Notes under the pieces: model-generated
Databases searched by the model: none
Told to the model about the DNA's origin: nothing
The model's input: the letters and a program-made list of their open reading frames with translations, nothing else
Shown: piece after piece, positions 2,884 to 31,586 of the stretch
How positions within the stretch are numbered: position 1 is the stretch's first letter
Layout of the letters: every line of letters begins with the position of its first letter
Translations under genes and position numbers: made by a program
IMG/VR virus record: IMGVR_UViG_3300044823_000422
Coordinates: 1-35,110 of that record
DNA length: 35,110 nt
Origin: a virus
Direction: 5' to 3' (one strand)

Positions 2884-2913
2884 TTGACACCCACCACCAG
2901 CAAGGATTATATT
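2884..2913 (+). promoter_or_regulatory. leaderless-type promoter of the pseudopilin unit
   Basis: TTGACA (2884-2889), an 18-base spacer beginning CCCACCACCAGC, and TATATT (2908-2913) are followed after exactly six bases by ATG at 2920. The geometry is the same as that of the minus-strand promoter at 2377-2406, and implies that the mRNA begins at or next to the start codon. Confidence 0.75.
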
Positions 2914-2919
2914 GGAACG

Positions 2920-3747
2920 ATGAAAGTAAGTCCTCGCGTAAAACTTCCGGCTTTCACACTGATTGAATTGCTGGTGGTCATATCCATTCTCGGCATCATG
3001 GCGGCGCTGACCGTGCCGGTGCTCAAAAACTTCGCCCAATCGGATTCCACCCTGGGAGCCTCACGCCAGTTGCTCGACGGCGTTGCCCGCGCGCGGCAAC
3101 TGGCCGTCAGTCACCACACCACCGTTTACATGATTTTCGTGCCGGTGGATTTTTGGAACTACACCAACGGAACATGGCCTAACGGCTGGTGGACCAGTCT
3201 GACCCCGGCGCAGCAAGCCGCCGTTTCCAATCTGTGCGACAAGCAATTGACCGGGTACAACTTTGTCAGTTTGCGCCCGGCAGGGAACCAGCCCGGTCAG
3301 GCAACCCCCCGCTATCTCGATCAGTGGCAGACCCTGCCCGATGGGATGTTTGTTGCCGTGACGAAATTCACCGAGTTGCCTTCCCAATTCTATCCCGTCA
3401 TTGATCCGGTTTCCGGCGCGGTTTTTGATATTTATGGTTTCCACAATCTCCCCATTCCCTTTCCCACAGCGGACGCGCCGCCCGTCCCCATGCCTTGCGT
3501 CGCGTTCAATTATCTCGGCCAACTGACGGATGATGGCCAGGCCGTCGCCGGCGCGGACGAATACCTTCCGCTGGCCAAAGGCAGCGTCATTTACGCCAAG
3601 GATGCCGCCACCAAAACTTTCAAATTCAATTCCCCGGACGTGCTGGAAAGTCCGCCCGGTAACAGCATTGATTCCTCGTACAATATCGTTCACATTGAAC
3701 GCTTGACGGGCCGCGCTTTCTTGGAGTTCCAAAAAATTAACCACTAA
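2920..3747 (+). CDS. prepilin-type N-terminal cleavage/methylation protein (GspH/FimT-like pseudopilin)
   Basis: The 275-residue product begins with a short basic leader (MKVSPRVKLPA) followed by FTLIELLVVISILGIMAAL, a classic type IV prepilin/pseudopilin signal. Cleavage is expected before F12, and the conserved glutamate E16 is at mature position 5. The next segment (SRQLLDGVARARQLAVSHH) resembles the GspH/FimT helix and the remainder is a large beta-rich domain (WNYTNGTWPNGWW, YNFVSLRPAGN). Such proteins are exported to the inner membrane and enter type II secretion or pilus-like fibres. Proteins of this style are very abundant in PVC bacteria and unusual in phage genomes. The start at 2920 is fixed by the promoter six bases upstream; longer in-frame starts would lie inside the previous gene. 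It is followed 24 bases later by a secreted protein gene. Confidence 0.8.
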   Translation: MKVSPRVKLPAFTLIELLVVISILGIMAALTVPVLKNFAQSDSTLGASRQLLDGVARARQLAVSHHTTVYMIFVPVDFWNYTNGTWPNGWWTSLTPAQQAAVSNLCDKQLTGYNFVSLRPAGNQPGQATPRYLDQWQTLPDGMFVAVTKFTELPSQFYPVIDPVSGAVFDIYGFHNLPIPFPTADAPPVPMPCVAFNYLGQLTDDGQAVAGADEYLPLAKGSVIYAKDAATKTFKFNSPDVLESPPGNSIDSSYNIVHIERLTGRAFLEFQKINH

Positions 3748-3771
3748 ACAAATCCAGGAAAAGAAAGAATC

Positions 3772-4863
3772 ATGAAAACATCAAAGTTAAATATCGGCCT
3801 CGTGTGCCTTGGCGTCTTTGTCACCGCTCTGGTTCGAGGGGATTCCTATAGCGGCACAAATCTTTGGCTTGAAATCACGGGAAGGAGCAACCAGCTATTC
3901 TCCTTCAATATTCATAACACGCCCCAGTACCAATACTACGAGATTCTTGCCAAAACCGATTTGACAAGCCCGGTTTGGATTCCGACGGGTGCGTTTTACG
4001 CTACTCCGGTAAACGGAGTGGTATCCCTTCTCAATCAAGACGAAAGTTGTTATTGGTGGGCAAACAGTGAATGTTATTGGGTAGCGGCTGGGTCAATGCC
4101 CAAGACCTTGTATTTCAGGGCCTGTGCAGGGAATGCAGACCTTCGTTTTTACCCCTGCAACGGCACTTATATTCTTGGTCAGCCCCCCTCCACAAACATG
4201 CCGGGTCAAAGTCTGACCTTCAACATTGATTCCGACAAAATGCCGGCCCCCCTCCCGGTAAATTTCCAACTGATCGGGTCCGCAGTTAATGGCCTTGATT
4301 ATTCCATCACGGGAATGCAAGTGGTCGGATCAACCGGGTCAATGGTTATTCCTGCCGGGGCTAATTGGTCCTCAAACATTGTCATCACCCCGCTGCCCGG
4401 CAAAACCAACGGGATTTCAACAACGCTGACAATTGCAATGGCTTTGGGGAGCAATTATGTTTTCGATTTGGGGAATGAAGCAATTTCACTGATTTTTACC
4501 AATAAATACACCAATACAATCCCTGTTATTATTACCAATATTTCGCCGAATCCTTTTGACATGACCACAACCAATCCCATCACGATTCTTGGTTCCGGTT
4601 TTTTCCCCGCGCTTAACATGGAAATTCATGTTGAAGATGCTCTTGGCGGAATGGATTCAGACGGTTACTGGATGAAAGCAACCCTTGTCAATTCCGGGGA
4701 AATGACTGCCGTTTATGGCGGGTCCGGCAATGGCGTCGTGGGACCGAGTCCCGGCCCGATGCTTGTCTATTACCAGGACGCGACCGGAAAACAGTCCAAT
4801 GTTCTTAATGCCATAAGAACAAACACAATCGTAGTTCTCACTAATGAAGTGCCACAAATTTAA
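3772..4863 (+). CDS. secreted protein with C-terminal IPT/TIG-like domain
   Basis: The 363-residue product has an N-terminal signal peptide (MKTSKLNIGLVCLGVFVTAL, cleavage likely near VRG/DS). The first ~130 residues (NLWLEITGRSNQLFSFNIHN, YYEILAKTDLTSPVW) resemble verrucomicrobial secreted beta-sandwich proteins. Residues ~252-350 form an IPT/TIG-like beta domain (ISPNPFDMTT, ILGSGFF, VYGGSGNGV, LVYYQDATGKQSN) closely matching the C-terminal half of the tail-module gene at 30997-31548. The gene is A/T-richer than its neighbours, which suggests separate origin. AGGAAAAGAAAG lies upstream of the ATG. It is co-transcribed with the pseudopilin-like gene and closed by a terminator. An adhesin or receptor-masking role is inference. 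Confidence 0.75.
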   Translation: MKTSKLNIGLVCLGVFVTALVRGDSYSGTNLWLEITGRSNQLFSFNIHNTPQYQYYEILAKTDLTSPVWIPTGAFYATPVNGVVSLLNQDESCYWWANSECYWVAAGSMPKTLYFRACAGNADLRFYPCNGTYILGQPPSTNMPGQSLTFNIDSDKMPAPLPVNFQLIGSAVNGLDYSITGMQVVGSTGSMVIPAGANWSSNIVITPLPGKTNGISTTLTIAMALGSNYVFDLGNEAISLIFTNKYTNTIPVIITNISPNPFDMTTTNPITILGSGFFPALNMEIHVEDALGGMDSDGYWMKATLVNSGEMTAVYGGSGNGVVGPSPGPMLVYYQDATGKQSNVLNAIRTNTIVVLTNEVPQI

Positions 4864-4910
4864 AACTGACTCATTAACCCCACATCCATCAATCAGAAAG
4901 CCTACGGCCA

Positions 4911-4943
4911 AGGCGCACTTCCAGCGAAGTGCGCCTGTTTCTT
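4911..4943 (+). terminator. rho-independent terminator
   Basis: AGGCGCACTT and AAGTGCGCCT form a perfect 10-bp stem around CCAGCG, followed by GTTTCTT. It ends the pseudopilin/secreted-protein unit. The stem shares the GGCGCAC core with the terminator at 1525-1561. Confidence 0.75.
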
Positions 4944-5081: not shown

Positions 5082-5576
5082 ATGAAAACAGGCAAAAAAA
5101 CAGGCAAAAGATGGACCCCGGAAGAAAAAGAACAGGTATTCACCAAAGCCCTCGAAGTCTTGCGCAGCGGATACGAAGGATCAATGGCGTCGGTCTGGCA
5201 ACAGGCGCAAATGGTTTTACCTGCCGAACGGCGCTATGACGAATTTTCAAATTCTTATCCGACCATCCTGACGAAGGGATTCAAGGAATGGCGCAAGGCC
5301 CAGCCCGGCCCGCACCCGGAACTGGACAAACTGCCCCAGACTAAAAAACCCCAGGCCCGCAAGAAAAAACTCCTCACCCCAAAACAGCGTTCCAGAATCG
5401 CGCGCAAAGCAAACCGCGCCCGCTGGGAGAAAAAACGCCAGGCACAATCCCTCGCAGCCGGGTCCCTTACTGCTGTGCCCATGCCCCTTGCGTTTTGTCC
5501 CCAATGCGGGACCGACCGGAACCTTTGCAGCAAATGCGGATTTGATTTCCGCTCGGTCAAATTTATTGCCGCATGA
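5082..5576 (+). CDS. basic protein with Myb-like N-terminus and C-terminal zinc ribbon
   Basis: The 164-residue product has a helical N-terminal domain (RWTPEEKEQVFTKALEVL, then VLPAERRYDEF, GFKEWRK). A lysine/arginine-rich linker follows (KKPQARKKKLLTPKQRSRIA, KANRARWEKKRQ), and the C-terminus is a zinc ribbon with CPQCGTDRNLCSKCG. The whole is strongly basic, suggesting DNA or RNA binding. The N-terminal domain is clearly similar to that of the next gene: W, acidic pair, an AQ motif, LPxERR and a terminal W. The leader (accaaaaaacaaaaaaacatc) lacks a Shine-Dalgarno site. A regulatory role is inference. Confidence 0.7.
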   Translation: MKTGKKTGKRWTPEEKEQVFTKALEVLRSGYEGSMASVWQQAQMVLPAERRYDEFSNSYPTILTKGFKEWRKAQPGPHPELDKLPQTKKPQARKKKLLTPKQRSRIARKANRARWEKKRQAQSLAAGSLTAVPMPLAFCPQCGTDRNLCSKCGFDFRSVKFIAA

Positions 5577-5644
5577 CCTTTGGGGAGCAGTCAACTGCCC
5601 GCTGACTGCTTCACTTAAAAAACTCAAACCACCACCACACCACC

Positions 5645-6427
5645 ATGAAAACACGAGTCCATTGGGACGAAGATCAAATCGAGAGTATCGCCGCCGCCTT
5701 TGTAAGGTTGCGCACCAAGGAACCATTTGTTGCCTACACCAAATATTTAGCCAAAGCACAGGAGGAATGTATCGTGCCAGATGAACGCCGAAAATTATGT
5801 ACCGTCAATGCCGTGCCCTTGCTGAAAACCCGCATTCAGGCGCTTTGGGAAAAGGCGATCCAGTCCGAACCAACACCCCCACAGATCATCGAAATCCCGG
5901 TGGAAAAAACCCCGGACTTTGCCGAAATAGCTGCCCGACTGGACGCCCCAACCCTGGTGGCCATGCTGACCAAACGGGTCACGGACGCTTTGAGCGGATT
6001 GCACCTGGCCAATGGCCTCGAACGTCCGCTTGCTCCCACCAAAGCCGCCCCGCTCGCTTCCATTCTTACCCCGCCGCCCCCGCCGCCGCGCCCGCCCCGG
6101 GTGGCGTTTTTGCATGTGGAACTCAAATTCTTTTCCGAACTTCAAGCCGAAGTTGAAAGACTGAAAATCCCGGTGGAATTGCGCGGCGTGGACATTCACC
6201 ACAAGGGAGCACCCAAGATTCCTATGAGTGCCGACTTCGTTGTGTTTATGAAAAACGCCACGGGGGGGCTGGCCATGAAAACCGCCCTCGTCGGCTGGCA
6301 CCGCTCGCGCGTCTATGTGCTGGAACAGGACACGATGCAACAAGCCGTGAAAACATTGTACGACATCCTTTCCAAAAAAATCCACGTCCCGGCCACGCTT
6401 CCCGCTCCCGCCCCGGCCCGCGTATGA
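5645..6427 (+). CDS. Myb-like N-terminal domain protein with a DUF2325-like C-terminal domain
   Basis: Residues ~1-75 (HWDEDQIESIAAAFVRL, KAQEECIVPDERRKL, RIQALWEKA) are paralogous to the N-terminus of the preceding gene. A middle helical region is followed by a proline run (ILTPPPPPPRPPRVAF, ~residues 139-154). The C-terminal ~100 residues form alternating strands and helices (VELRGVDIHHKG, ADFVVFMKNATGG, SRVYVLEQDTMQQAVKTLYD) that recall a small Rossmann-like DUF2325 domain, where a D-F/V-V-V strand precedes a conserved site. I am unsure of that assignment. The 260-residue protein ends in ATGA shared with the next gene. The leader has an ACCACCACCACACCACC run and no Shine-Dalgarno site. Confidence 0.65.
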   Translation: MKTRVHWDEDQIESIAAAFVRLRTKEPFVAYTKYLAKAQEECIVPDERRKLCTVNAVPLLKTRIQALWEKAIQSEPTPPQIIEIPVEKTPDFAEIAARLDAPTLVAMLTKRVTDALSGLHLANGLERPLAPTKAAPLASILTPPPPPPRPPRVAFLHVELKFFSELQAEVERLKIPVELRGVDIHHKGAPKIPMSADFVVFMKNATGGLAMKTALVGWHRSRVYVLEQDTMQQAVKTLYDILSKKIHVPATLPAPAPARV

Positions 6428-6891
6428 CCGAAGCCGAAGCCAGAAAAATCACGGACCCCTCGGCCATCCCGTGGAGCGAGCCGTGTTTTGTTTTTGTATC
6501 GGGCCGTTATTATCTGGGCATGTGTTTCCTGGCGGTGCCACAAGGAAAGGAATGGCCCAAGGGCGGCAATGTGACCGCCCAATTCTGGCGTTTCGACTCA
6601 ACCCCCAATGAATGGGTTTGTACCTGGCGCTTTCGCTATTACGTCAGTGAAGATGCCTGGGACAACAAGGACAAAAAATCCTGGCATGTCGGGAAACTGT
6701 CCGGCAATGAAACAATGATGGAAAAAGAAATGGCCGGATTCGGCAACATCATTGCGGGCGTGGCCGGTTTATATTTCGGGGCCGCACCGCCGAAAGTTCA
6801 CTCCTTGATCTTCAAAGGTGACAGCGAAAAGGCGCTCGGCATCGTTGCCCGTGAAAAGCCCTTCTGGCTGCAAATGAAGGAATCAAAATGA
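6424..6891 (+). CDS. unknown protein, probably a conserved phage family
   Basis: The 155-residue product is rich in tryptophan and aromatic residues (EPCFVFVSGRYYLGMCFL, QFWRFDSTPNEWVCTWRFRY) and ends in a soluble K-rich tail. It has no signal peptide. I recognise no family. ATGA overlaps occur at both ends (6424-6427 and 6888-6891), so it is translated with its neighbours. The aromatic beta pattern suggests a compact beta-sheet fold. Confidence 0.65.
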   Translation: MTEAEARKITDPSAIPWSEPCFVFVSGRYYLGMCFLAVPQGKEWPKGGNVTAQFWRFDSTPNEWVCTWRFRYYVSEDAWDNKDKKSWHVGKLSGNETMMEKEMAGFGNIIAGVAGLYFGAAPPKVHSLIFKGDSEKALGIVAREKPFWLQMKESK

Positions 6892-7463
6892 TCGAAGTCA
6901 CCAATTTCCATGCCCGTGCCGACCTGTATGTGGCGAAATGTCTGGTTTCGCGGCCACACCTGAAACCCTGTTGTGCCATTGGCTGTTTCGCTTGTTGCTC
7001 CGAGGCGGTTTATGCCGGCGAAGCCGAAGCCCTGCACATCCTTGAATATCTTACCCCGGAACAAACCGCCGAGGTCAAGATGAAGCTCCCCGAATGGCTG
7101 GCCAAAACCAGGCCCGTGATGAACCAGCACCAGCCCGACGCGATGGATTATCGCCGGCTCAACGCCCCGTGCGTGCTGCTCAAAAACGGCCTCTGCTCGA
7201 TTTATCCCCGCCGGCCTCTGGGCTGTCGCACCTGGTACGCTTTAAAAAATCCATCCGACTGCGACCTGCCCCAACGGCAACACCAAAAATATGCCGAATT
7301 CATGCCGGGCCTGGCCGTGGCGTGCGGCCTCCTGGCTGTCAATGGCGTGGCCATGCTCGATCATCTGGGCGTATTACTTGCCGAGAACTTGCTGGGTTTG
7401 TCCATTCCCAGCGCCAGCCGGGAAACCTGTAAGCCGTCCGAAATAAAATTCCATGCTGAATAA
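6888..7463 (+). CDS. YkgJ-type cysteine cluster protein
   Basis: The 191-residue product carries the cysteine-cluster layout of YkgJ/Fe-S or zinc-chelating proteins: CCAIGCFACC at about residues 25-34, then CVLLKNGLCSIYPRRPLGCR around residues 95-115. This matches the family pattern of a CxxxCxxCC-like cluster followed by C-x(n)-C-x2-Y-x2-RPxxCR. Members bind a metal; their reaction is unknown. It is coupled by ATGA to the previous gene and overlaps the next by 11 bases, and it opens a run of cysteine-rich genes. Confidence 0.8.
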   Translation: MIEVTNFHARADLYVAKCLVSRPHLKPCCAIGCFACCSEAVYAGEAEALHILEYLTPEQTAEVKMKLPEWLAKTRPVMNQHQPDAMDYRRLNAPCVLLKNGLCSIYPRRPLGCRTWYALKNPSDCDLPQRQHQKYAEFMPGLAVACGLLAVNGVAMLDHLGVLLAENLLGLSIPSASRETCKPSEIKFHAE

Positions 7464-7926
7464 AATCATATCCCCTGCCGGACAGGAAATGCTCCTGGCC
7501 GGCTTTTGTCCCGATTGCGGCGCGGCCATGCTGTTAAACGGCCCGCGTGGCGGACTGGCCCGCAACGTCCTGTGCGGTGCCTGCCGCACGGAATTCAACG
7601 TCAGCCCCCTGCAATGTGAACGCCTCGCCGCCCCCTCTGATCCCGCCCGCCAGAAAGAAGTTTACGGCGTGGATGAACAGAATTTTCCCGTCGCGTCTTT
7701 CCCACTCCGGTCCCTGCTCACCCGGAAGGAATTGGACGCGGGACTGGCTCGTGGTTGTGGCGATCCCCATTGCACCCACCATCACGAACCCCAGACGGAA
7801 ATCTTTCTCAAATCCAACTGTCATCCCAACGCCGGATTGTCCGCTTGTTACTACAAGGACGGCACCCTGATTTTAACCTGTCGCCTTTGTCACCGGCTGG
7901 TGGTGAAGATTCTGGTTGCTTCCTGA
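7453..7926 (+). CDS. zinc-ribbon protein
   Basis: Start ATG 7453 lies within the end of the YkgJ-type gene. The 157-residue product has a zinc ribbon at about residues 18-45 (GFCPDCGAAMLLNGPRGG, then LCGACRTEFNV) and a second metal-binding-like region with CGDPHCTHHH and TCRLCHRLV. The first resembles phage proteins with CPDCG...GPxGGxxxNxxC. It probably binds two zinc ions. Function is unknown. Confidence 0.7.
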   Translation: MLNKIISPAGQEMLLAGFCPDCGAAMLLNGPRGGLARNVLCGACRTEFNVSPLQCERLAAPSDPARQKEVYGVDEQNFPVASFPLRSLLTRKELDAGLARGCGDPHCTHHHEPQTEIFLKSNCHPNAGLSACYYKDGTLILTCRLCHRLVVKILVAS

Positions 7927-7927
7927 T

Positions 7928-8263
7928 ATGAATGACCCCATTCCCATGCTGGTCGGAATGCCCGTCAGTGCGGAAAGTCTCCGCAAAGTTGGCGTCCTGA
8001 AATATGTGCATTCCCTTGGAGCCGTGCCGGCCCCCTGCGACCGCTGCGCCCAGCCCACCTGGATTGGTCCCCGGCAGCGGGAACTCAAACGCACCCGCCC
8101 GGAACTCGAATTCATTTGCGCCAATTGTCTTGGGGCAGACTTTAAAGCCTCGGGCATTACCACCCAGGACGAAGTAGTCGTCCAAAGTTGCGGCGGCAAC
8201 AGTGGCAGTTATTTCATGGCCGACGGCACCGCCATCCTCCCCAAACCGTCCCCAGCAAACTGA
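7928..8263 (+). CDS. small zinc-ribbon protein
   Basis: I choose ATG 7928, one base after the previous stop, rather than the in-frame TTG at 7916; this gives 111 residues. A four-cysteine site is visible (CDRCAQPTW and ICANCLGADF, ~residues 38-76). The rest is beta-like (DEVVVQSCGGNSGSYFM). It is the third consecutive metal-binding-type gene. Function is unknown. Confidence 0.65.
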   Translation: MNDPIPMLVGMPVSAESLRKVGVLKYVHSLGAVPAPCDRCAQPTWIGPRQRELKRTRPELEFICANCLGADFKASGITTQDEVVVQSCGGNSGSYFMADGTAILPKPSPAN

Positions 8264-8985: not shown

Positions 8986-10422
8986 ATGCTTTGCGTTTTT
9001 CCAGTCTATGCCGGGGACGCCTTTTTGCTGCTCAACCTCCTGCGTTGGATCAAACAGCTTGGCGGCTGTCCCGGGCACTCGGCCCTCATTGTCGCCGATG
9101 CCGGCCTGCCCTGGAACCATGCCGAAGATATTATCACCCTGGTCAGCGAAAGTTTCGACCACACCGACTTTATCACCAACGGCCAGTCCGTCGCCGGCTG
9201 GATTCCCGGCAGCAACTCGCTCTGGTACACCGCCGCCAAATTTTGCGCCACCGACGTTGTCGGCTGGCTCTGGCTCGAACCGGACGCGGTCCCGTTGAAA
9301 CCCGGCTGGCTCGACGCCCTGGACCGCGCCTACGATGGCACCGTCAGCGATTTTCTCGCCAGCATCTATTCCTGCAACCGTTTGGATTGCCCGTTGACCA
9401 TGATGACCGGCGTGGCCGTTTACCCCGACAATGCCATTGCCTTTTACAAGGACGTGGTCGAAGCGTTCGACGTGCAACTGTCCCGCACCGCCATTGATTT
9501 CGTTGAGGACACCCACCTCATCCAACAGTTTTGGGGCCAGCCCGGGTTGCCCCCCACTTTCCGTCCAACCAAAAATGGCGCGCCCCTTCATGCCTTCACT
9601 CTGGCCGATCTCAACCCGGAAGCGGTTCTGTTTCACCGGAACAAGGACGGCACCCTCATCGAACTGCTCCGCGCCCAGGCCGGCATCCCCGCGCCGCCGC
9701 CCCTCCTGGTGGCCCTGCCCGTCTGTGTCAAGGACGCGGCCATCATGGTCAAGGCCCTCGATTGGATGGTGGAACTCGATGGTCAAAACCAGTTTGACTG
9801 CCTCCTTTCCTACGACCCCACCCTTGGGCCGGTCTGGCTGTCCCGCTTGCGCGAGTCCGCCAGCCGCGCTTTTCGCACCGTCCATGAATTCAGCTACCCC
9901 CGCCCGGTGCGCGAAATCTGGCCGGACGCCTGCAACATTTCGTTCCAATCCACGGCGCACCACATCCAGGCCATCCATCACCGGCCCTGGCTCTGGTTCG
10001 AGGCCGATTGCGTCCCGCTCAAACCCGACTGGTTGCCCGCGCTCTGGCTCGAATACCAGAATTGCGGCTACCCGGTCATGGGGCCAATCATCCCCGAAGC
10101 CGGCCACATGAACGGCACGGGCCTTTATCCGGCCAATTTCGCCAACCTCTCCCCCCGGGCCATGTCCGCCGTGGAAGTTTCCTGGGACACGTCCATGACC
10201 CCCGATCTGGTCGGCAAGGTCCACGATTGCAGCCGCCTGTTTTGCCACCGCTGGGGCATGGTGGATGGCCAGCTACACCTCTCGTCCGGCCCGCCCGCGC
10301 ATTTTTCCACCACCCTCTCCGTGGACCTGTGGATTCCGCCCGAGGCCGTTCTGTTTCACCGCTGCAAAGACGGCTCGCTCGTTGACCAACTCCGCGCTAA
10401 AAAAGCACTCCATGACCACTGA
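8986..10422 (+). CDS. tandem-duplicated GT-A-like glycosyltransferase
   Basis: The 478-residue product consists of two copies of a ~240-residue unit. Unit 1 has WLWLEPDAVPLKPGWLDAL (residues 95-113) and unit 2 WLWFEADCVPLKPDWLPAL (335-353). Each unit ends similarly: PEAVLFHRNKDGTLIELLRA (211-230) and PEAVLFHRCKDGSLVDQLRA (about 452-471). The E-P/A-D-(A/C)-V-P-L motif lies where GT-A enzymes carry their metal-binding acidic motif, but it is not a canonical DXD, so one or both units may have altered chemistry. The protein is predicted to be cytoplasmic and to transfer sugars onto a glycan or other acceptor. It overlaps the next gene by 11 bases and leads the cassette. Confidence 0.75.
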   Translation: MLCVFPVYAGDAFLLLNLLRWIKQLGGCPGHSALIVADAGLPWNHAEDIITLVSESFDHTDFITNGQSVAGWIPGSNSLWYTAAKFCATDVVGWLWLEPDAVPLKPGWLDALDRAYDGTVSDFLASIYSCNRLDCPLTMMTGVAVYPDNAIAFYKDVVEAFDVQLSRTAIDFVEDTHLIQQFWGQPGLPPTFRPTKNGAPLHAFTLADLNPEAVLFHRNKDGTLIELLRAQAGIPAPPPLLVALPVCVKDAAIMVKALDWMVELDGQNQFDCLLSYDPTLGPVWLSRLRESASRAFRTVHEFSYPRPVREIWPDACNISFQSTAHHIQAIHHRPWLWFEADCVPLKPDWLPALWLEYQNCGYPVMGPIIPEAGHMNGTGLYPANFANLSPRAMSAVEVSWDTSMTPDLVGKVHDCSRLFCHRWGMVDGQLHLSSGPPAHFSTTLSVDLWIPPEAVLFHRCKDGSLVDQLRAKKALHDH

Positions 10423-11221
10423 AATTTTCATCTGTACTTACGTCAAGGATTTTTCCTACCTCAAGTATTGCCTCCGGTCCATTGCCAAATCCGCCACGGG
10501 CTTTGCCGGCCTCACCATCCTGGTGCCCAAGGAAGATCATGCCGGCCTGGTCAGTCTCGTGGCCGAAGTCGCCGCCTTCAAACCCCTGCCTTGCCCCGTC
10601 CAGCTGCTCGCGGGCGATGAATGGCCCGGCCTGGGCATGGTCTGGCACATGAACCAAATCATGCACGCCGACCAGTTGTGTCCCGCTGCCGACTTTATTG
10701 CCCACCTTGACCCGGACTGCGTTTTTACCGGCCCGGTCACCCCCGAAACTTACATCGTGGCCGGCAAGCCCATTCTCCGCTTTGAAAATTTCAACTTCAT
10801 CGGCTTCCGCCATCCCGGCGTGATCCGCTGGCAGGAAGCCACCGCCAGATGTCTGCCGTTCCCCGTCCATTACGAAACCATGCGGTGTCACCCGGAAGTT
10901 TATCATCGCGCCCTCTACGCCGCCGCGCGCCAGCAAATGGAACAAAAGACCGGCCAGCCGGTCCCCGATTACATCCGGTCCCAACGCAACGAATTCCCCC
11001 AAACCTTTTGCGAATTCGTCACCCTGGGCAACGTGGCCATGCACCTGTTCCGCGAGCAATATCACCTCGTCGAACAGTTCGATGACCACACCACCCCGCC
11101 CAACCATTTGCAACAGTTCTGGTCCCACGGCGCGCTCGACCAATACTGGGAAATATGGGTCGGCGGGGAAAAGAAAAGCACCAGCCCCATAGCCGTGATG
11201 AAAGAACTTGGATTGACATGA
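10412..11221 (+). CDS. DUF6492-like glycosyltransferase
   Basis: ATG 10412 is preferred because it lies within the end of the previous gene; the longer frame would run through it. The 269-residue product begins FICTYVKDFSYLKYCLRSI, as DUF6492-type glycosyltransferases do. It has an acidic motif in a strand-turn context (FIAHLDPDCVFTGP, ~residues 94-107) and IVAGKPILRFENFN. The family belongs to the GT-A fold. Its C-terminal region (NLHLFREQYHLV-like, then FWSHGALDQY) is helical. The end overlaps the radical SAM start as ATGA, so it is coupled. Confidence 0.7.
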   Translation: MTTEIFICTYVKDFSYLKYCLRSIAKSATGFAGLTILVPKEDHAGLVSLVAEVAAFKPLPCPVQLLAGDEWPGLGMVWHMNQIMHADQLCPAADFIAHLDPDCVFTGPVTPETYIVAGKPILRFENFNFIGFRHPGVIRWQEATARCLPFPVHYETMRCHPEVYHRALYAAARQQMEQKTGQPVPDYIRSQRNEFPQTFCEFVTLGNVAMHLFREQYHLVEQFDDHTTPPNHLQQFWSHGALDQYWEIWVGGEKKSTSPIAVMKELGLT

Positions 11222-11973
11222 TTACCCTCGAAAAATGCGAAGTGAACATCACCCGCCACTGCAACAACCATTGCGCGGCCTGTAATCACGGCTCCCCCTT
11301 CGCGGACCCGTACTACATGGACCCGGAAGTCTTGCGGCGCGATCTGGCCGTGCTCTCCCCCTTCCTGCATCTCGGGTTTTTTTGTCTGCAAGGCGGGGAA
11401 CCCCTCTTGCACCCCCGGCTCATCGAACTCATGGACGTGGCCATGAATTCGGGCATCGCCGACAAGTACGGCATCCTCTCCAATGGCCGGTTGCTGTCCT
11501 CAATGCCGGAGGCGTTCTTCCAAAAAGCCGGCCAGATGAAATGCGAACTGCGCGTCTCGGCCTATCCCAACCTCGACCGGACCACCCTCGTCGAACCCAC
11601 CCGCAAAGCCGTCCAGTACGGTTTTGAAATCCGGCCCGGGGGCATTGAATCGTTCCAGAAATTATTCCGCGAACAACCGGATGGCGGCGTCACCATTTGG
11701 AGAATTTGTCCCTGGAAAAATTGCTACACCGTGCATGAAGGCTGGTTCTTTCATTGTCCGCTGGCCGCGTTTTTCCCGGAACAGTTTTTCGGGCTGCCCC
11801 GGAACACGGACGGCCTTCCCCTGGCCGGCCTGACCGAAGCCACACTCGCCGAATTTCTGGCCCGGACCATTCCGCTGAAAACTTGCACACATTGCAATGG
11901 TGCCAGCGGCACCTGGATTGGCTGGCATCAGGTTTACAACCGCGACCAATGGATCAAGGAGTCAACCGAATGA
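11218..11973 (+). CDS. radical SAM enzyme
   Basis: The 251-residue product has the radical SAM cluster motif CNNHCAAC (Cys15, Cys19, Cys22; C-x3-C-x2-C), which binds a [4Fe-4S] cluster and S-adenosylmethionine. It is followed by GGEPLLHPRL (~residues 59-68), the usual SAM-binding GGEP motif. The C-terminal part has further cysteines (ICPWKNCYTVHEGW, FHCPLA, CTHCNGA), reminiscent of an auxiliary-cluster (SPASM-like) region. The start at ATG 11218 overlaps the previous stop; the longer frame starts inside the neighbour. Similar enzymes occur in polysaccharide clusters, where they modify sugars or peptides, but the substrate here is unknown. It is coupled to the first methyltransferase by ATGA. 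Confidence 0.85.
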   Translation: MITLEKCEVNITRHCNNHCAACNHGSPFADPYYMDPEVLRRDLAVLSPFLHLGFFCLQGGEPLLHPRLIELMDVAMNSGIADKYGILSNGRLLSSMPEAFFQKAGQMKCELRVSAYPNLDRTTLVEPTRKAVQYGFEIRPGGIESFQKLFREQPDGGVTIWRICPWKNCYTVHEGWFFHCPLAAFFPEQFFGLPRNTDGLPLAGLTEATLAEFLARTIPLKTCTHCNGASGTWIGWHQVYNRDQWIKESTE

Positions 11974-12626
11974 GCCTGGCTAAAACCATTTCCCAAAAAC
12001 TTCTTCCCGGCGTTGACCCCTACACCGGCTTCCCCGCCGCCCAATGGGGCGGTTACGAAAACGTGGATGGCTCGACCCGCGCCATTTTCGAGCGGTCCAT
12101 TGACCTCTGCCAGCCGGGCGTCATCATCGAAGTCGGCACGTTCCTGGGCGGCAGCGCCCTCCACATGGCCGGCCTGTGCAAAGCCAAACGCCTGGACGCC
12201 GCCATCATCTGTGTGGATACCTGGTACGGCGGTTTCGACCACTGGACCAAGGCCCGCGAGAAGCTGCACTACCACTTTGGCCGGCCCGCGCTCTATTACG
12301 AATTCGTTTCCAACGTCATCAAGTACGGCCATCAGGACATGATCATCCCCTTGTGCCTCGATTCTGCCAACGCCGCGCGTTACCTGACGGCTTGCGGCAT
12401 CACCGCCCGGATGCTTTACATAGACGCCAGCCACGAGCCAGGCGATGTCATGCGCGATTACGAAGCCTATTACCCGCTCCTGTCCCAGGGCGGCGCGTTT
12501 CTGGTGGATGATCTCACCAACTGGTTTCCCGGCGTGGTGTCGGATTGGGAATCCTTCACCCGTGCCCGCAACCTGCGCGACCTGGCTCAGGTCGAAGGCG
12601 AGAAAGGACTGATCATCAAACCATGA
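11970..12626 (+). CDS. class I SAM-dependent methyltransferase (Methyltransf_24-like)
   Basis: The 218-residue product has motif I IIEVGTFLGGSALHMAGLC (~residues 52-70), an acidic motif II (IICVDTWYGG) and the characteristic YIDASHEPGDVMRDYEAYYP followed by GGAFLVDDL. This places it in the Methyltransf_24/CmcI-like class I group, whose members often methylate sugars or small molecules, with a metal bound at the D-A-S-H region in some cases. The acceptor is unknown. The start is fixed by the ATGA overlap with the radical SAM gene. Confidence 0.85.
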   Translation: MSLAKTISQKLLPGVDPYTGFPAAQWGGYENVDGSTRAIFERSIDLCQPGVIIEVGTFLGGSALHMAGLCKAKRLDAAIICVDTWYGGFDHWTKAREKLHYHFGRPALYYEFVSNVIKYGHQDMIIPLCLDSANAARYLTACGITARMLYIDASHEPGDVMRDYEAYYPLLSQGGAFLVDDLTNWFPGVVSDWESFTRARNLRDLAQVEGEKGLIIKP

Positions 12627-13237
12627 ACCTCACCTTTGCCGACCCTTTGGAAACCGCCCTCAATGCCGCCCTGAACGGGCACGAAATCCAGCAACACGAA
12701 TGGGAACTGCGCGAGTTTTTCTCCAGGGTGCTGGCCGAATTGAAACCGCAACGCACCGTTGAACTCGGCACCTACAAAGGCTGGATGGCCATGCTCTTGA
12801 GCCACGTCACCACCGGGCAAACCGTTTCCCTGGACATCCACGATTACGGCACCCAGGACGCGCGTTCTTATGGCCACAACCTGGCTCTGGTCATTGCCAA
12901 TGCGTGTAACCCCGCCACCCCGCAACAGATTGTGGACACAAACTTTTCCGGCCAGCCCATTGACCTGTTGTTCATTGATGACGGCCATTATTACGAGGAC
13001 GATGTCGTCGAATTCAAAATCTGGAAACCAATGGTCCGGCCCGGGGGCTGGATTTGTTTCCACGACATCAACCCGCTCGCCAACATCGGCCCGCACGGGG
13101 TGCAACCGCCCGAATGCCAGACCGCCAGGTTCTGGCAGGAATTGACCGGCAACAAAGAAGAAATTATCGCCACGGAAAAACATAAAATATTTCGCGGGCC
13201 GATCCCCCACGGCGGCATTGGCATCCTCCGCGTATGA
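12623..13237 (+). CDS. class I SAM-dependent methyltransferase, second copy
   Basis: The 204-residue product carries TVELGTYKGWMAMLLSHV (motif I, ~residues 45-62), a SAM ribose-binding acidic strand (VSLDIHDYG) and LLFIDDGHYYEDDVVEFKIW with GGWICFHDI. It is in the same group as the preceding gene but the two differ in sequence, so they probably have different acceptors. The start at ATG 12623 overlaps the upstream stop. The C-terminus (KIFRGPIPHGGIGILRV) is beta-like. Its end overlaps the next glycosyltransferase as ATGA. Confidence 0.85.
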   Translation: MNLTFADPLETALNAALNGHEIQQHEWELREFFSRVLAELKPQRTVELGTYKGWMAMLLSHVTTGQTVSLDIHDYGTQDARSYGHNLALVIANACNPATPQQIVDTNFSGQPIDLLFIDDGHYYEDDVVEFKIWKPMVRPGGWICFHDINPLANIGPHGVQPPECQTARFWQELTGNKEEIIATEKHKIFRGPIPHGGIGILRV

Positions 13238-13962
13238 CGGCCTGGCTTTATTGCATTTGCCGCAACGAGGCCCGGCTCATGCCGTACCTGTTGCGGCATT
13301 ACACCACCTTCGTTGACAAACTGATTTTCTACGACGACCAAAGCGATGACGGCACGCGCCAGTTGATCCAGTCCTGTCCCCAGGCCGAACTGCGCGACTG
13401 GCCGGGTTCGCATGGGATCGTGGATGACGAATTCATGGACTTTGCCAACCAGCAATGGAAGGAAGCCCGGGGCAAGGCCCACTGGGTCATCTGGATTGAT
13501 GCCGATGAATTCATTTATCACCCCCAGATTGTCGAAGTGTTGGACCGCCTGTTGGCAGCGGGGGTGGACCTGCCCCAGCTTCACGGCTACACGATGGTTG
13601 CCGACCATTTCCCCACTACCACCGGCCAGATTTACGACGAAATCAAAACCGGCTTCTATGACGAAGCCTGGTCCAAGCCGGCCATTTTCCGGGCCGACAT
13701 GAAATGGAATGTGGGCCGTCACAGTTACGATCACGTCGCGGTCAAGCTCCGGCTGAGTGACCAGGTCGAATTGAAACTGCTGCACTACCGCTGTCTGGGC
13801 ATGGATTATTTGCGCCAGCGGCACGAGCGGAATTGGGACCGCGTCCCCGACCGCTGCCGCCGGCTTGCTTACGGAACCAACTGCGCTCCCGACCAAACCG
13901 GCCATCATACCGTCACCTGGTTCGATCAAATCTCCAAAAGTAAATTCCCGGAAATTATATGA
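13234..13962 (+). CDS. GT2-type glycosyltransferase
   Basis: The 242-residue product begins WLYCICRNEARLMPYLLRHY, then shows IFYDDQSDDGT (residues 34-41 hold DDQSDDGT) and WVIWIDADEFIYHP with the metal/sugar-nucleotide site at Asp88-Ala-Asp90. These are the elements of an inverting GT-A, family 2-like enzyme of the Glyco_tranf_2_4 type. It is closely paralogous to the gene at 14663 with the same spacing of motifs. No membrane segment is present, so it acts in the cytoplasm. Both ends are coupled by ATGA. Confidence 0.85.
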   Translation: MTAWLYCICRNEARLMPYLLRHYTTFVDKLIFYDDQSDDGTRQLIQSCPQAELRDWPGSHGIVDDEFMDFANQQWKEARGKAHWVIWIDADEFIYHPQIVEVLDRLLAAGVDLPQLHGYTMVADHFPTTTGQIYDEIKTGFYDEAWSKPAIFRADMKWNVGRHSYDHVAVKLRLSDQVELKLLHYRCLGMDYLRQRHERNWDRVPDRCRRLAYGTNCAPDQTGHHTVTWFDQISKSKFPEII

Positions 13963-14666
13963 ATGCCAAACCCGTCTGTGTCTCCACCTGGTGTGACGCC
14001 CGTAAACATTTCAGCGCCTTTCAGGAAACCGCCAGGCGCAACGGCATTGACCCGCAAAATGCCGACCCCGAATTGTGGCCGGGCCGCGAGTGGTACGAAA
14101 TCCCCTGGTGGCGCAAGAGCGATGCCCAGGCCCGCTTTGTCCGCGCCCATGCCGCCGAGTACACCCACTTCCTGTTTTGCGACAGCTACGATATTTTCTT
14201 TGCCGCCGGCTGGGACGAAATCCTCGCCAAGTACGAAGCCCTGAACAGCCCCATCGTCTTCGGCACCGAACGCTATTGCTGGCCGAAATTGGAACAAGCC
14301 GGACTTTACCCGCCATGCCCGTACCCCACCCGTTTCCTCAACGCCGGCATGTGGCTCGCCACCACCGAACACGCCTTGAAACTGGCCGAAATCCTGGCCG
14401 CGCGGGCCAGGGAAAACGCCGACCCGGCCAAGGTAAACAAACAGTGCGACAGCGGCATTTGCGTTGACCTGTTTTTGTCCAGGCAACTGCCCATCGCCCT
14501 GGACAACAAATGCTCGCTGCTCTACTGCTGCAACATGGATTCGATGGACCATTTAACCCTTGAGAATGGCCGGATCAAGGCGGTGGAAACCGGCGAAAAT
14601 CCCTGCCTGTTCCACGGCAACGGCAATGCCAATGTCAGCAAGCTCTATCCGTGGTTGAAATTATGA
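13959..14666 (+). CDS. PLOD-type glycosyltransferase
   Basis: The 235-residue product shows HFLFCDSYDIFFAAGWDEIL (acidic S-Y-D motif, ~residues 69-88), RFLNAGMWLATTEHA, CDSGICVDLFLSRQL and a late LFHGNGNAN. This order is that of the procollagen galactosyltransferase/lysyl hydroxylase (PLOD) glycosyltransferase domain, a GT-A fold enzyme, as found in many large phages and algae-infecting viruses. In animals it modifies hydroxylysine; in phages the acceptor is usually unknown. It lies between two GT2 paralogs and is coupled on both sides. Confidence 0.75.
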   Translation: MNAKPVCVSTWCDARKHFSAFQETARRNGIDPQNADPELWPGREWYEIPWWRKSDAQARFVRAHAAEYTHFLFCDSYDIFFAAGWDEILAKYEALNSPIVFGTERYCWPKLEQAGLYPPCPYPTRFLNAGMWLATTEHALKLAEILAARARENADPAKVNKQCDSGICVDLFLSRQLPIALDNKCSLLYCCNMDSMDHLTLENGRIKAVETGENPCLFHGNGNANVSKLYPWLKL

Positions 14667-15388
14667 CCGTCGCCGTTTGCAGCCTGTGTTACAACGAACG
14701 CGCCATCCTGCCATTTTTCTTGCGGCACTATGCAACCATTGCCGATGAAATCAACGTCTGGGATGACCACAGCACGGACGGCAGCCGGGATATTTTAAAG
14801 GCCCACCCCAAAGTCGTCCTCCACGACTGGCCGCACAATAACGGCATTGCCGAGGATTATTTCCTCGAACATTGCTACCAGACCTACCCCCAGTTTGCCG
14901 GCCTCGCCGACTGGGTCATGTGGCCGGACCTGGACGAATTCCTTTATCACCCGCAAATGGCTTCGGTCCTGGCCGATGCCAAAAAGGCCGGGCACAAGGT
15001 TTTGGCCAGCCTTGGTTTCAACATGGCCAATCAGGGCTTGCCCCCCGATGACGGCAAGAGTCAGATTTACGACCTGGTCAAACTGGGCGTCCTCGCGCCG
15101 GTTTACGGCAAACCCGTCATCTTCCAACCAGATTCCGCCGTTCGCTGGGATCGGGGCAAACACCATCTGGAAAGTCCCCAGCCGGCCCATGACGCCGGCA
15201 TTAAATTGCTGCATTACCGTTACCTGGGCTACGAATATACCAAGGCCAAGAACGCCAAAAATTACGCCCGCTGCGGCCTCCTGACCGGCGACAAGGGCGC
15301 GGCCTGGTCCTGTTCCCCAAACTACACCGGCGAACATTCCGCCGACTGGTCGGAAAAAATGTTGAAACTGGCCTTCCCGGTGATCTAA
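14663..15388 (+). CDS. GT2-type glycosyltransferase, second copy
   Basis: ATG 14663 is preferred to the in-frame GTG at 14651 because it overlaps the preceding stop as ATGA. The 241-residue product repeats the pattern of 13234: VCSLCYNERAILPFFLRHY, WDDHSTDGS and WVMWPDLDEFLYHP with Asp89-Leu-Asp91. It continues KLLHYRYLGYEYTKAKNAKN, matching KLLHYRCLGMDYLRQRHERN of its paralog. Clear local duplication has therefore occurred, with the PLOD-type gene between the copies. Its stop is followed by 12 bases before a small gene. Confidence 0.85.
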   Translation: MTVAVCSLCYNERAILPFFLRHYATIADEINVWDDHSTDGSRDILKAHPKVVLHDWPHNNGIAEDYFLEHCYQTYPQFAGLADWVMWPDLDEFLYHPQMASVLADAKKAGHKVLASLGFNMANQGLPPDDGKSQIYDLVKLGVLAPVYGKPVIFQPDSAVRWDRGKHHLESPQPAHDAGIKLLHYRYLGYEYTKAKNAKNYARCGLLTGDKGAAWSCSPNYTGEHSADWSEKMLKLAFPVI

Positions 15389-15400
15389 CCTCTCACCACC

Positions 15401-15604
15401 ATGAGAACATTTAAATTGGATTGCGTTGACTGGAATGAGATACACGTAAAATTTAACGTGTTTGATCCGCGTGGTGCGGCTTGCGGCTTGCTGACCATCA
15501 GCCGCGCGGACGTAATTAACTTTGTCAAATATAGTTGGAAAGGCAACATCTTCTGGCACGGCAAGATGCCGGAAGATGTCGTCATGTCCGCACATGGATT
15601 ATGA
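15401..15604 (+). CDS. small protein in the cassette, unknown function
   Basis: The 67-residue product (MRTFKLDCVDWNEIHVKFNV onward) looks like a small alpha/beta protein with a KGNIFWHGKMPED segment. It is preceded by CTCACCACC and overlaps the next gene as ATGA (15601-15604). No domain is recognised. Its position within the coupled cassette makes it likely to be real. Confidence 0.6.
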   Translation: MRTFKLDCVDWNEIHVKFNVFDPRGAACGLLTISRADVINFVKYSWKGNIFWHGKMPEDVVMSAHGL

Positions 15605-16242
15605 TTATCGTTTCCTCCTTCCGCCCCTTTGAAACCTGTTCCAACATCGTCTGGTTGCAACAGGAAGCCGCCAACCGTTCCTGGGTCCGCCTCTTTGACC
15701 GGATTTTTTATTTCAACCATTCCGACACCCGCATGAAGTCCGCCAAAACCGCCTTCCTCCCCACCAACGGCAAACCGGCCATCAAAAAACTGGCCGCGTT
15801 TTGTGGCGGACTCAACGACTGGTCCTGCCTCGTCAATGCCGACATCGTCATCCCCCAAAACTTTCGCCGCGTCGAAGAAGCCTTGCGGGGCCAGCCCGCC
15901 GGCTGCGCCGTCAGCCGGCGTTACACCCTGCCTGCCGATGGCGACACCGCCACCGCCCGCCTCACCGACCTGGGCCTGGACTTCTTTGCCGCCACCAACA
16001 CCGTCTGGAAAGCTGTCGCCGAAAAAATCCCCGAAGGGTTCTGTTTGGGCCGCACGAAATGGGACAACTGGGTGCTCAACTTTTTCATGGCCGAATTCGG
16101 CAACCATTGTTACGACCTCACCAACTCCCGCGTCGTGTTCCATCCCATGCACGAGGACCGGGCCGACCAGAACTGGGACTATCCCAAAGACGATCCCTAC
16201 CTCAACAAAAACAACTGGCCCTTCCACGCCATTGAAATATGA
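15601..16242 (+). CDS. glycosyltransferase-like protein
   Basis: The 213-residue product begins MIIVSSFRPFE and contains SCLVNADIVIPQNFRRVEEA, where NADI takes the place of a DXD motif (~residue 78). It then has AVSRRYTLPADG and DLGLDFFAATNTVWKAVAEK. The pattern is that of short GT-A-like proteins that describe a sugar-binding strand-helix unit. Length is short for a complete transferase, so it could be a minimal or helper enzyme. It is coupled on both sides and is the last glycosyltransferase-like gene in the cassette. Confidence 0.6.
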   Translation: MIIVSSFRPFETCSNIVWLQQEAANRSWVRLFDRIFYFNHSDTRMKSAKTAFLPTNGKPAIKKLAAFCGGLNDWSCLVNADIVIPQNFRRVEEALRGQPAGCAVSRRYTLPADGDTATARLTDLGLDFFAATNTVWKAVAEKIPEGFCLGRTKWDNWVLNFFMAEFGNHCYDLTNSRVVFHPMHEDRADQNWDYPKDDPYLNKNNWPFHAIEI

Positions 16243-17053: not shown

Positions 17054-19441
17054 GTGGAATTCACCCATGCTCAAGCCGTCGAGCAAGTAGTCTGGCAAAT
17101 GCGTTTGGCCGACTGGCCACGCGCCCAAAATCGCGCCCGGATCAACAATCTGGCCAATGGCTGGCCCCCCTACGACGAGGCCGAAGTCGCCGCCAACAAG
17201 ATCGCCGTCAACTACAACGACCTCTCCCTTTCCAACATTTCCCACGCCGCCCGCCGCCAGTTGTCCAATGCCCTCATCACCCCCGACCCGCTGTTCACCG
17301 TGGAACTCGATTACGGCCCGGTCTGGCAGCGCCGCGATTGGGCCGGCATCATCCAATCCAAGCTCAATCGCATCATCCGGGGTTCATTGCCTTACCTCGA
17401 AACCCGCCGTAGCGTCTTTGCCCTGTTGTCCCTGCACGGCATCGCCCCGTCCTCTTGGGAAGATACTCATGCCTGGTGTCCCGAAGCCGATGGCGTCGAA
17501 GATATTCTCGTCCCCTCCAACACCCTGCTCTCGCTCAAAAATCTCCCCTTCCTCGCCCGCTTCCGTCAATACACCGGACGCGAGTTGTGGGAAATGACCC
17601 ACCGGCCCCAGGTGGACCCCGGCTGGAACGTGTCCCTCGTCGAAAAGGCGGTCAAGTGGGTGGACCAACAGGCCAAACAACTTCTCTCCGCCTCCTGGCC
17701 GGAAACCTGGTCCCCGGAAAAAATGGAGGAACGCATCAAACAGGACGGCGGCCTCTATTCGTCCGATGCCATCCCCACCGTGGATTGCTTTGAATTCCTG
17801 TATTGGAATGATGAGGGAAAACACTCCGGCTGGCGCAAAAAAATCATCCTCGATGCCTGGGGCGAACCCGGCGTCGGCGGCGTGGGCGGTATAAGCATTA
17901 ACACGAGCGGCAGTAAAACCCCCGGCAAGTACGGCGTGTGGAATTTTGACAAGTCGGAATTCCTTTACGATTCCGAGGAACGCGCCAACCCGGTTTTTTG
18001 CGAGAAGCTCAACCAGACCGTCCATTTTCAGTTTGCCGATTGTTCCTGTGTCGCCCCGTTCCGTTATCACAGCGTCCGCTCCCTGGGCTTTTTGCTCTAC
18101 TCCATCTGTCACCTGCAAAACCGCCTCAACTGCAAGTTCGACGAAGCCACCTTTGAATCCCTCATGCAGTATTTCCGCGTCACCAATTCTGCCGACGCCG
18201 AACGCGCCTGGAAAGTGGACCTCACGGATAAAAAAGCCCTGCCCGATGGTTTGCAATTTGTCAAACGCGATGAGCGGTGGGAAGTGGATGCGCAGCTCAT
18301 CACGATGGCCCTCCAAAAAAACCGGCAGATGATGGCCGATAATTCCGCCTCGTTTACCCAGGACTATGACCTGGAACAGGGCGAGAACGAAACCGCCACC
18401 CGCACGATGGCCAAGGTCAACACCAGCGCCGCCCTCGTCAGCGGCATGTTGAGCCAGGCTTACAACTACCAGAAATTCCAGTACGACGAAATCTGCCGCC
18501 GCTTCTGCCTCCGCAATTCCCGCGATCCCGACGTGCGCAAATTCCGGCTGTCCATTTTGCGGGCCGGCATCCCGGAAGAAGCCCTGAACATTGACCGTTG
18601 GAACGTCCAGCCCGTCCGGGTCATGGGGGCCGGCAATAAAATGCTCCAATCCGCCATGATGGATAAAATCATGGTGCTCTACTACAACAAGCTTGATCCG
18701 TCCGCCCAGCGCCATTTCTTGCGCCTCGGCCTCGCCGTCACCACCGACGATTACGAACTCGCCCGCCAATCCATCCCTGACGAGCCGGTGATTAGCGATT
18801 CGGTCCACGACGCCGAACTGGCTGCCGCCGCCCTCTTAATGGGCCTGCCCGTCTCGCTCAAGGAAGGCGTCAACCATGCCGAGTACGTCGAACGCCTCTT
18901 GCTGGCCCTGGCCATCAAGACCCAGCAAATCGGCAAGCGCGGCACCCCCATCACCCCGGACGAACTTAACGGCCTGCAAAACCTGGCCGGGGAATCCATC
19001 CAGGGCCAGCCCATCCCCGGCAATGGCGTGCGCAATCACCTGACCCTCCTGGCCGAAGACGAAAAGCCGCTGCACGTCAAGGGCGTGCCCCCGGATCATT
19101 CCGTCAAGGAAAAGGTCAAGAAATACTCCGATGCCCTCGCCAAAGTGATGAACCAGGTCAAGGCCCTCGCGCAACGCGCCGCCCAGGCCGCCCAGAAACA
19201 AAAAGGCCGGAACGGCGGCGGACTCGACCCCGAAACCGCCACCAAACTGCAAGGCCAGATGATCCTGAACAAGGCCAAGGCGGACAACGCGCGCGAGTCA
19301 CACGCCCAGCGTACCGCCCAGCGCCAGATTCAATTCGAGCAGCAGATGCAACAGGACGCCCAGAAACATGTACAGGACCTTGCCGCCGACCGGATGGAAC
19401 AAATGTTCAAGTATGGCAATAACGATGCCTCAACCAACTAA
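17054..19441 (+). CDS. phage portal protein
   Basis: The 795-residue product is the right size for a podovirus-type (P22-like) portal. It has an early RxxNLANGWPPYDE segment, NKIAVNYNDLSLSNISHAAR, a central core with FRYHSVRSLGFLLYSICHLQ and NRLNCKFDEATFESLM, and a helical C-terminal region rich in Q, A and K (~residues 680-795) fitting the barrel/crown. Portals form the dodecameric gate for DNA packaging. GTG 17054 is the first start after the promoter. The TAA stop runs directly into CTCAACC repeats. Neighbouring head genes support the call. Confidence 0.8.
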   Translation: MEFTHAQAVEQVVWQMRLADWPRAQNRARINNLANGWPPYDEAEVAANKIAVNYNDLSLSNISHAARRQLSNALITPDPLFTVELDYGPVWQRRDWAGIIQSKLNRIIRGSLPYLETRRSVFALLSLHGIAPSSWEDTHAWCPEADGVEDILVPSNTLLSLKNLPFLARFRQYTGRELWEMTHRPQVDPGWNVSLVEKAVKWVDQQAKQLLSASWPETWSPEKMEERIKQDGGLYSSDAIPTVDCFEFLYWNDEGKHSGWRKKIILDAWGEPGVGGVGGISINTSGSKTPGKYGVWNFDKSEFLYDSEERANPVFCEKLNQTVHFQFADCSCVAPFRYHSVRSLGFLLYSICHLQNRLNCKFDEATFESLMQYFRVTNSADAERAWKVDLTDKKALPDGLQFVKRDERWEVDAQLITMALQKNRQMMADNSASFTQDYDLEQGENETATRTMAKVNTSAALVSGMLSQAYNYQKFQYDEICRRFCLRNSRDPDVRKFRLSILRAGIPEEALNIDRWNVQPVRVMGAGNKMLQSAMMDKIMVLYYNKLDPSAQRHFLRLGLAVTTDDYELARQSIPDEPVISDSVHDAELAAAALLMGLPVSLKEGVNHAEYVERLLLALAIKTQQIGKRGTPITPDELNGLQNLAGESIQGQPIPGNGVRNHLTLLAEDEKPLHVKGVPPDHSVKEKVKKYSDALAKVMNQVKALAQRAAQAAQKQKGRNGGGLDPETATKLQGQMILNKAKADNARESHAQRTAQRQIQFEQQMQQDAQKHVQDLAADRMEQMFKYGNNDASTN

Positions 19442-28434: not shown

Positions 28435-28435
28435 T

Positions 28436-31548: not shown

Positions 31549-31586
31549 CCCATTGCCAGCCGACCAAACCGGACTACTTTGTTTTT

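Follow-up and report, generated by a model that had tools for sequence, protein, structure and literature searches.

Why does a phage carry one domain twice, once in an apparently exported protein encoded at the left of its sequence and once in a gene of the tail module at the right? The DNA analyzed here, called the window, is the linear IMG/VR virus sequence IMGVR_UViG_3300044823_000422 over its full length of 35,110 bases, a fragment representing 35 of about 54 kb. The virus probably infects uncultured Verrucomicrobiota, and because of the affinity of its pseudopilin, described below, we infer a host among the Limisphaerales. Relatives were found with the protein encoded at 17054–19441 (46–86% identity), and those with nearly complete genomes measure about 50–56 kb. 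This protein matched no family and is called a portal by its position only. The closest relative, G002, has a terminase 87–90% identical to that of the window, whereas the tail domains of the two phages are 61% identical. The left end is unlikely to be host contamination or a misassembly, since the genes at 533–2879 and 5082–8263, on the two sides of the left cassette, are matched by homologs in the same arrangement in G002, and several of them also in a second relative, G006. The features discussed in the following are collected in Table 1.

Table 1. Positions of the features in the window, with the evidence for each.
Feature	Position	Strand	Evidence
Promoter-like site TTGACA-18-TATATT, possibly of a leaderless transcript	2884–2913	+	11/12 consensus matches; 6 nt upstream of the pseudopilin start codon
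Minor pseudopilin, GspH / Verru_Chthon cassette D-like	2920–3747	+	Apparently captured from a Limisphaerales T2SS-type locus; PF07963
P0001 gene, apparently exported chimeric protein (363 aa)	3772–4863	+	Export-signal-like N-terminus; atypical composition
P0001, signal-peptide-like segment, residues 1–24	3772–3843	+	K-containing start, hydrophobic stretch, mean hydropathy 2.76
P0001, host-type backbone, about residues 25–250	3844–4521	+	tblastn to Limisphaerales secreted proteins
P0001, TIG-type domain common to the tail-slot protein	about 4525–4821	+	Alignment with P0002; alignment limits
Intrinsic-terminator-like hairpin closing the two-gene unit	4911–4936	+	11-pair stem, loop of 4, T-rich tail; fold z-score −4.5
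P0002 gene, tail module: N-terminal domain (residues 1–79) and TIG-type domain	30997–31548	+	Slot ortholog in G002; modeled TIG fold
P0002, shared domain	about 31234–31527	+	Alignment limits

First, the products of 3772–4863 (P0001, 363 aa) and 30997–31548 (P0002, 183 aa) were compared. Residues 254–347 of P0001 aligned with residues 83–172 of P0002 at 45% identity (42/94 identical, 64/94 similar; E 9e-24). The local alignment score was 218, while shuffled sequences (n = 500) scored 43 on average (sd 7, maximum 77). The motifs that the first-pass annotation had read in both proteins were all present and in the order it gave. The two proteins have this one domain in common, and no similarity was found beyond it, as residues 1–251 of P0001 against P0002 (score of 37) and P0001 against residues 1–79 of P0002 (score of 32) remained at shuffle level. 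In the DNA comparison, 40% of the third codon positions of the two domain copies were identical, and the same codon was used at 24 of the 42 identical residues. Since silent sites are thus near saturation, the kinship of the copies is old and does not reflect a recent copying event; likewise, the fusion or split must be old because 60% of the third codon positions differ. A recent duplication of the phage's own tail domain was considered as well and is disfavored by the near-saturated third positions. When the tail copy of G002 was included, the P0001 domain was found to be equidistant from both tail copies (47–49% and 48% identity), which were 61% identical to each other; three sequences do not suffice to place the root. 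The best-conserved part of the three copies was the loop ED..GG.DS[ND]GY.M, which was picked after the alignment had been inspected and in which 9/14 positions were invariant, as compared to 26/78 elsewhere (p 0.04). This is weakly compatible with a common ligand of the three copies.

Second, the fold of the domain was modeled by AlphaFold with P0002, its G002 ortholog and the P0001 domain as input. Residues 80–181 of P0002 were modeled as a beta sandwich (block pLDDT of 65–92), and residues 1–79 were not modeled confidently. The model of full-length P0001 (mean pLDDT of 40) was set aside. The top structural matches of P0002 80–181 were NF-kB dimerisation domains, the TIG domain of CAMTA1, cyclodextrin glycosyltransferase (CGTase) and the TIG domain of EBF3 (Z of 7.6–8.4, with a Z of about 8 being near background; rmsd mostly 2.5–3.0; about 81–92 residues aligned), and they agree on one fold family, the IPT/TIG type. 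The gathering score of the Pfam family TIG (PF01833), 20.9 bits, was not reached by P0001 (13.1 bits, E 0.096), and P0002 did not match this family. In a viral structure library, tail-fibre and IPT proteins matched at E about 2e-3, and no match was at or below 1e-3. Thus, the domain models as a probable TIG-type Ig fold that is not filed in the Pfam family, and its IPT/TIG-like nature, previously read from the letters, agrees with the modeled fold and its structural matches.

Third, the distribution of the domain was analyzed with a three-row profile of the P0001, P0002 and G002 copies, which themselves score 162–170 bits. Nothing was found at E 0.001 in 293 genomes of the order; 49 genomes of the family yielded one fragment (E 0.07), and 388 genomes of the phylum yielded fourteen marginal matches, the best with 20.4 bits. 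A pattern scan with the three-row alignment retrieved none from 84,980 species genomes and G002 alone from IMG/VR; the pattern step requires short exact peptides, and distant relatives can escape it. Fifty related phage records contained no further copy. Neither P0001 nor P0002 had a direct sequence match in INPHARED phages or solved structures or was assigned to a PHROG, and none of the IMG/VR pattern scans in which P0001, P0002 or the pseudopilin served as a single query sequence gave a match. Thus, the domain was found twice in this phage and in the tail slot of G002, and nowhere else in the samples. As far as these samples and first-look filters allow, the domain is not one that is common in hosts, and the special link between the two copies that the first-pass annotation had claimed held up against about 700 Verrucomicrobiota genomes.

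The conserved slot of the P0002 gene supports its proposed placement in the tail module. It is flanked by 28376–30994 and 31563–32612, both conserved in relatives, and the preceding gene at 27637–28434 matches tail-fibre PHROGs. The G002 ortholog in the same slot shows about 48–52% identity to P0002 (61% in the TIG part). In 36 loci of relatives in which both flanks are present, the length of the slot varied from 41 to 4743 bp, and six of these loci were without any ORF of at least 80 aa. The scanned occupants carried FN3, LamG, He_PIG or DUF6242 domains. Variable occupants of this kind are what a receptor-recognition slot would be expected to hold. A counterpart of the N-terminal domain of P0002 was found in the slot protein of L070/L084 (E 9e-6), and the C-termini of the slot proteins of L070 and L078 look TIG-like by reading, with no significant match. 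So, P0002 appears to belong to a variable recognition or decoration slot, in which a conserved N-terminal part is combined with exchangeable Ig-type domains. By slot position and occupant variability, it is a candidate receptor-binding protein, and it could be a decoration protein. The tail module also contains a lipoprotein-like gene (LFLAAC) at 32616–33044 without a homolog in the relatives compared.

P0001 is built differently. By tblastn, its residues 28–251 matched secreted proteins of Limisphaerales (E to 1.2e-10 (genomes) and 6e-15 (local)), and the second half of this backbone is Calx-beta-like by motif reading alone. Homologs spanning the whole backbone continue with an unrelated C-terminal region, in place of which P0001 has the tail-type domain. 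Since the C-terminal region is thus swapped relative to the host homologs, P0001 is chimeric, with a backbone of host type joined to a domain of phage-tail type. The GC content of its gene (47.6%; GC3 of 51%) is lower than that of the window (about 58% and 72%, respectively) and clearly below that of the tail gene. As predicted from sequence, the signal-like N-terminus of P0001 and the pseudopilin motif of its partner may direct both products to the envelope, and P0001 is probably exported.

The left unit had been called moron-like, and this description is borne out by the predicted promoter and terminator, the atypical composition of the second gene, its absence from relatives and the interchangeable slot. 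The segment from 2884 to 4936 thus has the predicted anatomy of a phage moron, with promoter-like and terminator-like sites, placed between genes that are conserved in relatives lacking the cargo; the genes on both sides are shared with G002 and G006. Very similar promoter-like sites, TTGACAC[TC]CACCACCA...TTAAATT, occur at the equivalent place in G002 and G006 with different cargo. Promoter and terminator are consensus-based predictions, and the region contains about as many such sites as expected from shuffling; the promoter call carries weight because its position and sequence are conserved in three phages. In G002 and in G006, the left-slot cargo comprises two proteins, one small and hydrophobic, the other with a predicted N-terminal membrane segment. 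The larger cargo proteins of the two phages are related to each other (E 5e-8), and no kinship was found between the N-terminal part of P0001 and this membrane cargo. Thus, the left slot may be regarded as a promoter-led port for apparently envelope-directed cargo.

Promoter-like sites that are TTGACACC-rich, with an 18-nt spacer and TATA(T/G)T, were seen at 2884–2922 (+) and 2406–2368 (−), i.e., on both strands 6 nt before an ATG. They hint at possible leaderless phage transcripts, and a similar site is present in G006 at 35605. In the equivalent left slot of G006, a 156-aa protein with the Fic-type motif HPFTDGNGRSGR is encoded at 33856–33386 (−), adjoining the membrane cargo.

The pseudopilin gene lies directly upstream of the P0001 gene, with a gap of 24 nt. 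Its product has the leader MKVSPRVKLPA followed by FTLIE, and the prepilin cleavage/methylation motif with E+5 was found above the respective cut-offs (PF07963: 23.0 bits, cut-off of 21.2; TIGR02532: 22 bits, cut-off of 16.3). The closest named profiles, GspH (TIGR01708; 25.7 bits, cut-off of 80) and Verru_Chthon cassette D (TIGR02596; 36.2 bits, cut-off of 70), remained below theirs, as they did for the host ortholog in L037 (33.9 and 43.5 bits). This host ortholog is present, almost always as a single copy, in 162 of the 293 genomes of the order (up to 70% identity, E to 8e-123) and is located downstream of T2SSE- and T2SSF-domain genes, among other pseudopilins. By sequence, the phage protein is thus an ortholog of the pseudopilin of the Limisphaerales T2SS locus. 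In a tree, it nests in one host clade (99/98), with G192 as sister (96/79), and it retains 67 of the 71 columns conserved in at least 90% of the hosts. Since these columns are kept and the protein nests within a host clade, it is a captured and maintained host gene. It resembles GspH and cassette D in that these are its best named profiles and its ortholog locus has T2SSE and T2SSF; it differs in being phage-borne, lacking the rest of the locus and staying below both curated cut-offs. None of 46 related phages encoded a protein with a PF07963-type prepilin motif, the alignment search of IMG/VR gave no other phage with this pseudopilin, and a literature search found no paper on a phage-encoded pseudopilin. 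P0001 and the pseudopilin may be unrelated passengers. Neither the pseudopilin nor the host-type backbone of P0001, the two features most telling for the mechanism, was part of the shared-domain finding of the first-pass annotation.

We propose that the two genes form an interchangeable moron-type cassette altering the envelope of the Limisphaerales host, most likely for superinfection exclusion, and give this reading a probability of roughly 0.4. The first gene would add a host-compatible minor pseudopilin to the T2SS-type pseudopilus of the host, and this extra subunit would alter or jam the secretion machine. The second gene would export a host-type protein bearing at its C-terminus a soluble relative of the tail TIG domain, which would occupy the surface ligand recognized by the tail TIG domains of related phages. 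Superinfection exclusion explains most of the features at once, and it is favored by the restriction of the domain to the phage copies in the samples, the variable tail slot, the conserved pseudopilin and the fact that all left-slot cargo in the three phages looks envelope-directed. There are also precedents: the secretion machine is known as a phage receptor in other bacteria, with phage VP2 using the T2SS secretin (PMC8101328), and overexpression of the pseudopilin gene gspG gave phage resistance (PMC9765573); exclusion proteins that are soluble or secreted and a prepilin-type gene of phage F10 are compared below. The chief point against it is that we identified no lysogeny gene in this incomplete record, and a strictly lytic phage would gain less from exclusion. 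Moreover, TIG copies with 45% identity need not share a ligand, which counts against exclusion, and the host-like backbone of P0001 may mean a host-type role apart from phage adsorption.

Exclusion proteins seldom show their target from sequence alone. The cassette would name two candidates, i.e., the ligand bound by the tail domain of the phage itself and the T2SS-type pseudopilus of the host. Should the exported domain prove to compete with tails, the rapid change of the tail slot and the swapping of left-slot cargo would belong to one arms race, and the small purified domain could be used to fish the receptor of many uncultured Verrucomicrobiota phages.

Conversion of the host without exclusion is a somewhat less probable alternative. 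Here, the cassette would modify adhesion, polymer use or secretion, and the TIG domain would serve as a handy adhesive module. TIG and Ig folds are often adhesive, and this habit fits the idea, as do the P0001 backbone, which is a common type of Limisphaerales exported protein, and the pseudopilin, which is conserved as if functional. It leaves unexplained, however, why the C-terminal domain is of the phage-tail variety, which was not found in about 700 Verrucomicrobiota genomes.

It is unlikely that the two TIG copies were taken up in separate events from a host or phage protein family outside the samples, with a shared donor pool and no functional tie. The identities of P0001 to the tail copies (47–49% and 48%, as compared to 61% between these), the nearly saturated silent sites and the lower GC content of the P0001 gene relative to the tail gene would fit such a history. 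However, none of the genomes searched (49 of the family, 293 of the order and 388 of the phylum) yielded a donor, and neither did IMG/VR or the 84,980 species covered by the pattern scan. Moreover, tail domains evolve fast (61% identity, with terminase at 87–90%), and about 47% identity would also be expected if the P0001 domain had descended from a tail copy.

An extended form of the exclusion reading has little probability. It would make the cassette a two-part lock of self-mimicry, with the T2SS as entry door of the phage, a modified tip subunit and a soluble relative of the tail's receptor-binding domain exported through the T2SS itself. If the lock exists, the left slot would serve generally as a port, led by a promoter, through which such locks are exchanged.

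That P0001 is a virion component, which would be released to the periplasm and there picked up by virions as they assemble or lyse, is very improbable. It has a domain in common with the tail-slot protein, but it lacks the N-terminal domain that tail-slot proteins share and carries an export-signal-like N-terminus; its gene lies far from the structural genes and has its own promoter-like and terminator-like sites. The earlier idea of a soluble virion part is therefore not favored. Least credible of all is an unremarkable resemblance through a common host domain, for which the weak Pfam TIG match (13.1 bits) might indicate distant kinship to a widespread domain, but the best Verrucomicrobiota matches reached 20.4 bits, as compared to 162–170 bits for the phage copies.

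Taken singly, morons, exclusion proteins and Ig domains of phages are known kinds; as far as searched, their combination here is undescribed, in which a subunit of the secretion machine, captured from the host, is paired with an apparently exported chimera whose C-terminal domain is related to one on the tail of the same phage. Soluble periplasmic or secreted exclusion proteins include Glo, and a secreted derivative of Ltp blocks infection (PMC3952083). As proposed for P0001, Ltp of Streptococcus thermophilus phage TP-J34 and Glo of a Vibrio cholerae phage are phage-encoded, exported past the cytoplasmic membrane and directed against incoming phages. In contrast to P0001, they have neither a pseudopilin partner nor a domain of their own tail, and a sequence link was neither found nor expected. 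Gp11 of Pseudomonas phage F10 and its relatives (NC_007805.1) also represent a gene with a prepilin N-terminal motif among structural genes, in F10 between the major tail protein and tape-measure genes. Resemblance to the window pseudopilin is confined to residues 11–67 (33–35%), the hosts differ, and no exported partner with a tail domain was noted. T4 Hoc (PMC10385173) and the IPT domain protein A0A6J5L8Z0 of an uncultured Caudovirales phage carry variable, probably adhesive Ig-type domains on virion proteins; in the window, by contrast, a close relative of the tail domain is found also in an apparently exported, host-type protein of the same phage that is not virion-like.

Further observations were made in the remainder of the window. 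The structural module includes a phage-borne GroES (Cpn10, E 6.6e-31) at 25012–25317, with homologs in most relatives. A cluster of glycosyltransferase-like, methyltransferase and radical-SAM genes (8986–16242), which separates the left module from the structural genes, differs in membership among relatives. A 73-nt direct repeat (19669–19741 and 23542–23614; 96% identical) lies within two different ORFs, and interspersed repeats of the AACCCTCAACCCTCAACCC type were seen at 19425, 23411, 23661, 24955, 27536, 30735 and 33026, several of them near gene boundaries of the structural region.
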